Assembly: GCF_016888135.1 (NCBI RefSeq)
Contig: NZ_JACSWB010000278.1
Location: 124,001-188,000 of the forward strand
Length of the DNA stretch: 64,000 nt
Source of the DNA: Leptolyngbya sp. CCY15150
Lineage (GTDB): Bacteria; Cyanobacteriota; Cyanobacteriia; RECH01
Reading direction: 5' to 3'
The notes below the pieces were generated by a model, which had not been told where the DNA came from, did no database searches, and worked only from the letters and a program-made list of their open reading frames with translations. Shown here in pieces: positions 49,550 to 54,982 of this stretch. The position numbers and the translations under genes were made by a program. Position 1 is the first letter of the stretch. Each line of letters starts with the position of its first letter.

Positions 49550-50697
49550 AACTTTTAATGCTCATTCCCTACCTAGCACCGGTCTATGGCGGCACGGCCC
49601 ATGTGGTGCCAGAACTGGCGGCCGCCTTGGCTCAGCAGGGCGTGGATGTGGATGTGGTGACTACGGTGGCGGCGGGGGACAAGGTGCTGGCGGTGCCGCT
49701 ATCCGGCTGGCAATCCCAAGCGGGCTATCGAGTGCGGTATTGTCCCTGTTGGCACCGGGGTGATTTCGTCTGGAGCAGTGCGCTGCTGCTTTGGCTAGCC
49801 CGCCATGGTCAAGACTACGACCTGGTGCATAGCCATACCCTCTTTGCCCCCATGCTGGCGATCGCCCATGGGATCTGCCGCTGGCAGCGGTTGCCCTACC
49901 TGATGACCCCCCACGGCATGTTAGAACCCTGGGCCCTAGGGCACAAGGCCTGGAAGAAGAAGCTGTATATGGCCTGGGTCGAACGTCCGGCCCTGGCCAA
50001 GGCCGGAACTATTCAGGTGCTCAGTCAGCGGGAGGCAGATCAAGTTGCAGCGCTGCGGCTATCCACGCCGGTGGCCATCGTGCCCAATGGCGTTACCCTG
50101 CCCCCCGACGTATCGCCCGCCGTCTTTGATGATGCCTTTCCCCTGATTGGCGATCGCACTCGACTTCTCTATCTCGGGCGCATTGATCCGAAAAAAGGAC
50201 TGGATCAGCTGATCACGGCCTTCGCGGCTCTGTATCGCGATCGCCCCCAAGTTCACCTCATTTTGGCCGGCCCCGATGCCCTCGGCTACCGCGATGCCCT
50301 CCAGCGTCAAGCCCGCACCCTGGGTTGCGGGACGGCCATCACCTTTACCGGGATGCTCTCCGGCGATCGCAAATGGGCGGCCCTCCGGGCGGCGGATCTC
50401 TTTGTCTATCCGTCCTACTCGGAGGGCTTTAGTTTGGCGATCCTGGAAGCCATGGCGGCAGGATTGCCCTGTGTGATTACCACGGGCTGTAATTTTCCCG
50501 AAGCAGCGATCGCCCAAGCCGTGGTGACGGTGGAGCCCGAGCAACCGGCCTTGACCAGTGCCCTGCGCCATCTTCTCAACGATCGAGCCGCGGCCCAAGC
50601 CCTCGGCGATCGGGCGCGGGAGTTTGTGCAAAACCACTACACCTGGCAGCACCGCGCCCAGCGCCTCGTGCAGGTGTATCAGTCTCTGTTGGATTAG
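49546..50697 (+). CDS. Glycosyltransferase, GT4 family
   Basis: 383 aa. N-terminal IPYLAPVYGGTAHVVPELAA, then LMTPHGMLEPWALGHKAWKK (a motif of GT4 enzymes of exopolysaccharide clusters), LLYLGRIDPKKGLDQLI, and the EX7E SEGFSLAILEAMAAGLPCVI. It is last in the co-directional cluster. Its stop overlaps the stop of the convergent coiled-coil gene by four bases. Confidence 0.92.
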   Translation: MKLLMLIPYLAPVYGGTAHVVPELAAALAQQGVDVDVVTTVAAGDKVLAVPLSGWQSQAGYRVRYCPCWHRGDFVWSSALLLWLARHGQDYDLVHSHTLFAPMLAIAHGICRWQRLPYLMTPHGMLEPWALGHKAWKKKLYMAWVERPALAKAGTIQVLSQREADQVAALRLSTPVAIVPNGVTLPPDVSPAVFDDAFPLIGDRTRLLYLGRIDPKKGLDQLITAFAALYRDRPQVHLILAGPDALGYRDALQRQARTLGCGTAITFTGMLSGDRKWAALRAADLFVYPSYSEGFSLAILEAMAAGLPCVITTGCNFPEAAIAQAVVTVEPEQPALTSALRHLLNDRAAAQALGDRAREFVQNHYTWQHRAQRLVQVYQSLLD

Positions 50698-51149
50698 AAC
50701 TCTTCCAGTAATCCGCCCAAACGGCTGAGTAGGGGATCGGGTTCGGGCTCCGCTTCCGGGATCTCATCATCGGGAATGGCGATCGCTTCGTCGCTGATCG
50801 GCACCTCTCCGTGGGTCACGCCGGGCTCCATCTGTTCCAGGCGGGCAGCTAGTTCATCTAGGCGACTATCGAGGCGGGCGATCGCCCCGGTATCGTCCTG
50901 CAACACCTGCTGCTCCACCGAGGCCATCTGCTGCTGTAGCCTGGTCACCTGCTGCTGCAGCTCCATCAACACCAGCACCGCCGCTGACGTCTCGCTGGCC
51001 ACTAGCCAGCGCTGTAGCCCTTGCTTGCAAAGGTCACTAAAGGACAGACTGGGGTCATCGGCCAAGACTTGCTTAACAGCCTTCAGCAGGGCTTGGTCTG
51101 CCTTGCTGCGCTTGAAGGTGACCTGGTAGTCGGGGGCTGGGGCTGTCAT
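50694..51149 (-). CDS. ParR-like partner of the actin-like protein
   Basis: 151 aa from the ATG at 51149, which overlaps the stop of the actin-like gene. Residues 1-55 (YQVTFKRSKADQALLKAVKQ) could be a small DNA-binding domain of the ribbon-helix-helix kind. A coiled coil follows (about 60-110: LMELQQQVTRLQQQMASVEQ), then an acidic tail ending LLSRLGGLLEEF. Size, position and layout parallel plasmid ParR, which couples a centromere to ParM filaments, but sequence similarity is not evident to me. Confidence 0.55.
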   Translation of the reverse strand: MTAPAPDYQVTFKRSKADQALLKAVKQVLADDPSLSFSDLCKQGLQRWLVASETSAAVLVLMELQQQVTRLQQQMASVEQQVLQDDTGAIARLDSRLDELAARLEQMEPGVTHGEVPISDEAIAIPDDEIPEAEPEPDPLLSRLGGLLEEF

Positions 51150-52210
51150 GGCCGGCCGGATACCAATTGCTTCGACAGAGACATGATCTGCAGCTCGCCG
51201 TAGATATATTGTCCGAGGGCGTTGGCGGTGCGGGAGGGTTTGGCCAAATGTCCCTTGAGTTTGGCTTCTTTCAACAGCGGCCGCAGGTCGCTCCAGAAAA
51301 ACTCGCCGCCACCGCCGCTGATAATCACGTCGGTCACCCGTTCCGGCAGCCAAGTGACCAAGCGATCGGACAGTTCTCGCGCAAAGCTCTTCTTAAGGCT
51401 GGGCAAAATGTCGTCGAGATTGGTGGGTTTGGTGACCCCCTTGGGACGATAGAAGCGATCGCCCTCTGGATGGTTCACCGCTTCAATCAGCGAGAGCGAT
51501 TGACTGTCGGCTCCCTGAATTTGGGCAGCGACTTGGTCATAAAACTGGCTCATGGCAAAGCCCACACTTTCCGAACTGCCTCGGGCAAACCGGAAACGAT
51601 CCACCATCAGAAAGTCGGTGGTTTGGTGACCAATATCCACCACCGCAACGGAAAGGTTGGGGAAGTCTGGGCTGGCGGCGCGTTTATCTTGGGCTTCGCT
51701 CCAGATCAAGCTGCCGTACCCCTCAGGCATCACCCACACATGGGTAATGTCCAGGCGCACCTCTTGACCGCGATAGATCATCACATGGGGCGATCGCACC
51801 AGACTGAGAATGTGCTCTTTCTCGCGATCGAATTGTTCTTGGGAATAGTAGGGCAAGCCTAGCACCACGCCCAATTCGCCCTGCAGACCAAAATATCCAG
51901 CGCAGGCTAGTACTTTGATCAAGGCATCATCAATTTTGGATTGGCCGATACCCAGGTCGGCCCCAAAGTCTGCGGCCAGTTGACCGCTGGCATAGCCGCG
52001 TCCTTGAAACTCTAGCCAGATATCCAGCAAGGGGTCGGTGGGTTGCCCTTCAAACTGCCCCCGGCGAACTTGTTCTACTGTGAGATGGGCGACATTGGCT
52101 TGAATGAGGACAACATCATCGGCATTGCGGCTGATGCAGGCTTTGGTGGATGTCCGCCCTAGATCAACACTGAGTACCGTACTTGGAACCGTGGAGGGTT
52201 TGCCAGTCAT
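51146..52210 (-). CDS. ParM/StbA-like actin-like ATPase
   Basis: 354 aa. The actin-fold signatures are visible: phosphate-1 VLSVDLGRTSTKACI, phosphate-2 VAVVDIGHQTTDFLMV, and the adenosine motif DVIISGGGGEFFWSD. It is shorter than MreB-type proteins and resembles ParM/StbA segregation ATPases and their chromosomal cyanobacterial relatives. It is translationally coupled to the small partner gene. Upstream lie a hairpin and two direct repeats that could be the operator or centromere-like site. No plasmid genes are nearby. Confidence 0.82.
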   Translation of the reverse strand: MTGKPSTVPSTVLSVDLGRTSTKACISRNADDVVLIQANVAHLTVEQVRRGQFEGQPTDPLLDIWLEFQGRGYASGQLAADFGADLGIGQSKIDDALIKVLACAGYFGLQGELGVVLGLPYYSQEQFDREKEHILSLVRSPHVMIYRGQEVRLDITHVWVMPEGYGSLIWSEAQDKRAASPDFPNLSVAVVDIGHQTTDFLMVDRFRFARGSSESVGFAMSQFYDQVAAQIQGADSQSLSLIEAVNHPEGDRFYRPKGVTKPTNLDDILPSLKKSFARELSDRLVTWLPERVTDVIISGGGGEFFWSDLRPLLKEAKLKGHLAKPSRTANALGQYIYGELQIMSLSKQLVSGRP

Positions 52211-52270
52211 TGAGATCTACAACCTCTTCAAATACGCGAGAACTAGATATGTACTCAAACCTGGACTATA

Positions 52271-52300
52271 GCCGACGAGATCGTTCATCTCGCTGTCGGC
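52271..52300. repeat. Hairpin upstream of the actin-like gene
   Basis: GCCGAC (52271-52276) and GAGAT (52277-52281) pair with ATCTC (52287-52291) and GTCGGC (52295-52300): eleven pairs with a 3-base bulge and a 5-base loop. It is 61 bases upstream of the actin-like start codon and could lie in its leader. Confidence 0.65.
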
Positions 52301-52353
52301 GATCGCCCCTGACATCATTGAATGCTTCAGGGCGGTACGTCAGTCTTGCTTGC

Positions 52354-52384
52354 TACCATACCGGCACTGTTACCACACCGGCAC
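52354..52384. repeat. Two 14-bp direct repeats, 17-bp period
   Basis: TACCATACCGGCAC (52354-52367) and TACCACACCGGCAC (52371-52384) differ at one base. The repeat unit and spacing resemble iteron-like protein binding sites. They lie about 145 bases upstream of the actin-like gene. Confidence 0.7.
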
Positions 52385-53095
52385 GGGCAACGCCTGACAC
52401 TGTCAGATTAATACATACAACGGTGGAAATGATGAATCAATTTCGCCCAGGGGCAGGGCGATCGCTCAATCCATCTTTTTTGGCCTGGTTTGACCTGGCG
52501 ATTCAGTACTATTGTACTATGCTGGGGCGATCGCCAAGGTCAAGGTTGCCTGCTTCCTGGGATTTCTGAGAAAAAGCGGCCTGGTTGAGGGGCGATCGCG
52601 ATCGGCGGCAAGATCTGGCTTAGATTGCCTGAAGTTCTTGATGGATAAAGGTTTTGGGCGGATCTGGCTGGTCTAAAGTCGGTGGTTCAAGGCAAATCTC
52701 CCCAGCTTGAGTTGCCCCACTTCTCCGCATTACGTTAAATTTAGTTAAGACCGCTTCTCATCAACCTTGTTAAGCTGGTAATTCCACACCCCCATGCAGT
52801 GATGTCTGAATGTTTCGTCTAAGCGTTCTGTCAGACCTCGCTCGTCAGCCAGGCTAGATGCAGGTGCGGGGACATGTAGAGCCGACCTAAGCCCAAGGGG
52901 TAACCGGTTGTTCCTACGTCACCCAGTGGGGATGCGGTTATCGATCGGTGGGCGGCTTGCTCCTGTCTCCGGTGGTGTTGATGTAGAGGCATGTGCTGAA
53001 GCAACCCTATAGCAACTGTTGACGTACAGATCACAATCACCCATTGAATCTGATTGCAAAACGCATACTCATTAAAGTTAGAGGCTATTTAGATT

Positions 53096-54982
<1,887 letters not shown>

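Follow-up and report, generated by a model that had tools for sequence, protein, structure and literature searches.

FcmBC (CorMR) is a pair of proteins that has its origin in a plasmid partition system (PMC12645912). In Nostoc punctiforme, rod shape depends on both fcmB and fcmC. FcmB forms membrane filaments that encircle the cell and depend on FcmC, and contact between the two proteins is demonstrated by a two-hybrid test (PMC12645912). The available text of the same source describes the nucleoids of fcmB and fcmC mutants as normal and unaltered in distribution, states that unicellular strains lack FcmB, and does not settle whether FcmC is missing from a few species. The CorMR system is the subject of Springstein et al. 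2025 (bioRxiv 2025.06.27.661541), as far as the available part of that preprint goes. The pair type is thus already known: it was described in 2025, and curated family models exist.

The window, a 64,000-nucleotide stretch of DNA from Leptolyngbya sp. CCY15150, encodes one such pair on its minus strand (Table 1). Judged by sequence, the pair is an orthologue of FcmBC/CorMR, a cell-shape cytoskeleton evolved from ParMR. A preliminary description had recognized an actin-like ATPase coupled to a small protein with a basic N-terminus, a coiled coil, and an acidic tail. Both genes are found at the positions given there, their reading frames overlap, and the small protein is basic in its N-terminal part and acidic in its tail, with a long helix predicted. 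That description had also proposed that the pair may position a chromosome region, the carboxysome, or the polysaccharide machinery. This proposal is not upheld; the pair is orthologous to a published cell-shape cytoskeleton. The best explanation, held with high confidence, is that the pair is the chromosomal FcmBC (CorMR) of a cyanobacterium close to Leptolyngbya sp. DLM2.Bin15, which bears HetR and is probably filamentous, and that it would keep the cells rod-shaped.

Table 1. Coordinates of the gene pair, its upstream elements, and related genes; positions without a locus prefix refer to the window.
Feature	Position	Strand	Evidence or remark
fcmC (corR), 151 aa: N-terminal putative ribbon-helix-helix, then a coiled coil, an acidic linker, and a conserved C-terminal helix with Phe as last residue	50694..51149	-	NF052682, model, comparison of homologues
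4 nt shared by the end of fcmB and the beginning of fcmC	51146..51149	-	not a family feature: gap of -4 to +276 nt in relatives
fcmB (corM), actin-like ATPase, 354 aa	51146..52210	-	NF052678, PF17989, PF21522, PDB 9rmi
Imperfect hairpin	52271..52300	-	z = -1.72; predicted pairing differs in two congeners
Two direct repeats, period 17	52351..52384 (52351-52367, 52368-52384)	-	15/17 identical
ftsH, divergent neighbor of fcmB	53096..54982	+	21 distinct loci, window included
FcmB fusion genes	L078:3539-5065, L079:3146-5047, L080:3539-5068, L097:1832-3361(-)		plasmids and one 142.6-kb contig

Both proteins match equivalog models of NCBIfam with curated cut-offs. In the profile searches, FcmB scores 624.7 bits against NF052678 (cut-off 300), and FcmC scores 98.8 bits against NF052682, just above its threshold of 90. 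FcmB also contains the actin-like domains PF17989 (E=8.5e-13) and PF21522 (E=1.5e-8). Its residues 4-344 match PDB 9rmi, deposited as CorM, with E=1.2e-152, and the sole other PDB match is a chromosomal ParM (E=0.012). The structural model of FcmB is poor (mean pLDDT 53.7) and was left unused. In the FcmB tree, from which fragments and duplicates were left out, the window sequence groups with its own family and then with Oculatellaceae and Leptolyngbyaceae.

The host genome assembly has 5.75 Mb in 304 contigs. A single FcmB exceeds the cut-off in it. It also encodes MreB, HetR_C, and two ParM-like paralogues that are distant from FcmB, with 23% and 27% identity. The pair is located on the chromosome, on a 325-kb contig that also bears the atp operon and ftsH. 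A 99%-identical FcmB is present in Leptolyngbya sp. DLM2.Bin15. FcmBC is present and HetR_C absent in each of the eight f16 genomes tested.

Of the 388 genomes scanned in the class, 90 encode an FcmB above the cut-off; the 14 control genomes encode none. In 87 of the 90, fcmB is followed directly by fcmC on the same strand. The FcmC scan covered a smaller sample of 376 genomes, in which two of the remaining three (G376 and G380) have no FcmC row; both are probably outside this sample, and FcmC is seen in locus L036 of G380. The third, G021, carries FcmC on another contig. FcmC is therefore present in nearly all FcmB-bearing genomes (87 of 90 directly downstream, plus L036), which bears on the point left open in the literature.

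The assignment to FcmBC is supported by the equivalog matches, the CorM match, the distribution of FcmB, the downstream FcmC, the tree position, MreB, HetR_C, and the published function. It is weakened by FcmC, which is barely above the cut-off, shares 19-43% identity with 28 homologues, has no Nostoc-type leader, and gave an empty fold search (no match at E <= 0.001). The present analysis establishes that both proteins are orthologues, and it also establishes their gene order, their conservation, and the co-occurrence with MreB. The function in cell shape would extend to the window organism from Nostoc-type species, to which the experiments on function are confined.

In the model of FcmC (mean pLDDT 71.4, pTM 0.30), an extended stretch precedes helices at residues 16-31, 37-110, and 139-148. 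This predicted succession fits the order expected when a ribbon-helix-helix (RHH) domain leads into a coiled coil, then a linker, and finally a helix at the end. The N-terminal strand-helix-helix pattern is conserved among FcmC proteins, and the Pfam profile RHH_1 gives a weak match in one of 29 members. A profile search of the PDB produced nothing but coiled-coil matches among the 60 listed of 118. In loci L061-L064 (f16 genomes, 2.2-3.2 Mb), the strand-helix-helix pattern of FcmC occurs twice in tandem. Other homologues are about twice as long with an expanded middle, namely L075:1392-2252(-) with 287 residues and L066:2634-3683(+) with 350 residues.

FcmC ends in Phe in all 58 homologues compared, and D-P is found at positions -14/-13 in 52 of them; the counts of FcmC sequences, here and for the leader below, omit L012, L017, and L030, where no proper open reading frame was found, as well as duplicates and fragments. 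In ParR, the C-terminal helix is the partner-binding element. By analogy, the invariant C-terminal helix of FcmC may be the peptide that binds FcmB.

In 33 of 56 FcmC sequences, among them all 24 from Nostocaceae (f32), the strand is preceded by a leader that contains Trp and two or more Lys/Arg residues. This leader is missing from the window FcmC and 22 others, and it is not an established family criterion. The Nostoc-type leader could be a membrane anchor. If it is, FcmC of the window type must attach in another way, and the absence of the leader from many relatives makes the membrane-anchoring question testable. In the leader-less lineage, the membrane might be reached through a partner protein, possibly linked to ftsH, or through the C-terminal helix, while the putative RHH domain would still contact the tandem element upstream and regulate its own operon. 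Such an FcmC would be an intermediate between ParR and a protein that serves as a membrane adaptor only, an arrangement that is improbable.

The upstream direct repeats reported in the preliminary description are present. Repeats as good appear in 0 of 300 dinucleotide shuffles of the 885-nt intergenic stretch when periods of 10-30 are allowed and in 1 of 300 for periods of 10-60. By the same measure, repeats of equal or better quality are found at four further places in the 64-kb window. The repeat pair occurs only in the window genome and two congeners, one of them represented twice (L004, L058), and was found neither in a same-family genome nor in any other locus compared. Its core is retained in the three congeneric genomes, and the flanking bases vary. 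One repeat unit contains the motif TGTGGTA. Among 16 relatives, 7 have a single copy of it within the 450 nt upstream, versus 0.4 expected and a maximum of 3 in shuffles. In the relatives that have it, the motif is mostly found about 20 nt after GTACTA; the other nine are without it. The repeats are more likely a duplicated promoter or operator element than parC or another centromere, because the pair is genus-limited and one unit holds an element that is single in some relatives.

The eleven-pair hairpin claimed earlier does fold, with a bulge of 3 nt, but it is near chance, with 11 of 200 shuffles as good. The upstream region of the window pair is unrelated to that of the Nostocaceae loci compared. 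A palindrome, AGTACTATTGTACT, is located at 52505-52518; it occurs once in the window and is also found in congeners. It resembles a cyanobacterial LexA box.

The setting between a glycan cluster and ftsH is conserved on one side. A divergent ftsH adjoins fcmB in 22 of the 77 loci searched, or 21 without a duplicate (L074 = L009), and these belong to several families (among them the window, L005-L015, L019-L021, L059, L060, L067, L070, and L075). It does not appear in the Nostocaceae loci, of which about 1.5 kb upstream was covered. A functional link between ftsH and FcmBC is possible from this arrangement. On the other side, the glycosyltransferase is not kept beyond the genus in the loci compared.

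It is very improbable that a type II partition system (parC-ParM-ParR) still moves DNA from this locus, with the repeats as the centromere, FcmC bound to them, and FcmB pushing either an integrated plasmid or some region of the chromosome. The ParM-like fold, the parM-parR gene order, the two direct repeats upstream, and a PHROG match to 'partition protein' (E=2.9e-32) speak for such a system. The repeat pair, however, is limited to the genus and has two units only, the contig is 325 kb long and carries the atp operon and ftsH, and CorM is the nearest solved structure, with chromosomal ParM next at E=0.012. Nucleoids are also normal in the N. punctiforme mutants according to the available text of PMC12645912, and on this ground and the unconserved repeats a working partition system was rejected. 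Missing conservation of the repeats in relatives had been named beforehand as grounds for refutation; the repeat pair is absent outside the genus in the loci compared, and by this test the partition reading fails. What stands of the type II partition-like module is its descent from ParMR, its chromosomal place, and its new use, and what falls, given the orthology to FcmBC/CorMR, is a partition system still at work. The partition reading is right on descent and wrong on present use. A role tied to the neighboring glycan cluster, in which FcmBC would position polysaccharide synthesis, is extremely improbable. Glycosyltransferase genes do adjoin the pair downstream, but among the 77 loci GT1 lies beside fcmC only in the congeneric L001, L004, L058, and L059, and GT2 only in L004. 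The link was rejected, as the neighbor is not conserved.

Less unlikely, though still improbable, is an FcmBC pair whose FcmC keeps DNA binding through its putative RHH domain and uses the tandem repeats to repress the operon, as a remnant of the autoregulation at parC. The conserved strand-helix-helix pattern, the RHH_1 match, the retention of the repeat core while its flanks change, and the excess of TGTGGTA over shuffles in seven relatives would agree with this. The RHH assignment, however, comes from one weak Pfam match in 29, the fold search gave no match at E <= 0.001, 9 of the 16 relatives are without TGTGGTA, and the element may be plain promoter sequence. 

Under the preferred FcmBC reading, FcmB is an ATP-dependent actin-like protein that would polymerize into filaments. 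FcmC would bind FcmB and tether the filaments to the inner membrane. Transverse FcmB rings would narrow the cell or guide wall growth, and rod shape would be kept. With this analysis, a plausible partition reading is corrected, and a system known only since 2025 gains comparative data.

FcmB relatives are also carried by plasmids. A search of 72,556 plasmids identified FcmB relatives at 53-57% identity in four of them and less similar ones in a further 23. Three of the four copies, and a fifth copy in genome G115, lie in open frames of 508-633 residues, in which a hydrophobic glycine-rich N-terminal stretch and a coiled coil precede FcmB. The fourth plasmid (H3) is from the same species as H4 and has an identical annotated protein. 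The plasmid records annotate the fusion genes as shorter ParM proteins. No FcmC is found beside the fusion genes among the listed open reading frames, and the plasmid fusions are a natural comparison of FcmB without adjacent FcmC. In the tree, for which the N-terminal part of the four fusion proteins was trimmed before alignment, the four copies nest within Nostocaceae chromosomal FcmB (support 100/97). They are thus derived from the chromosome and are not the ancestors of chromosomal FcmB. A conserved protein of 336 residues with an HNH-like SHIKPHSKGG stretch is encoded just ahead of the fusion gene (L078:2509-3519, L080:2495-3505, and L097:3381-4391(-)). The L078 copy has no Pfam, NCBIfam, or PHROG match and one weak PADLOC match.

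Among known systems, the window pair is most similar to FcmB-FcmC of N. punctiforme (NF052678, NF052682; PMC12645912), with which it shares the equivalog matches, gene order, chromosomal location, co-occurrence with MreB, and the C-terminal Phe of FcmC. Unlike that pair, the window FcmC is strongly diverged and without the MFQW..KK leader, and its gene shares 4 nt with fcmB. CorM (PDB 9rmi) is matched by residues 4-344 of the window FcmB, whereas the window FcmC has no structure match to CorR. As in plasmid ParM-ParR-parC, an actin-like ATPase precedes a small partner that may have a ribbon-helix-helix and that carries a C-terminal helix. The window pair differs from the plasmid system in that it has no conserved centromere, is not borne on a plasmid with replication genes, and belongs to an ATPase family distinct by sequence. 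The chromosomal ParMs of Desulfitobacterium hafniense (PDB 8x1i; available text of PMC12270681) are likewise chromosome-encoded ParM relatives, but they match FcmB weakly (E=0.012) and are not its orthologues.
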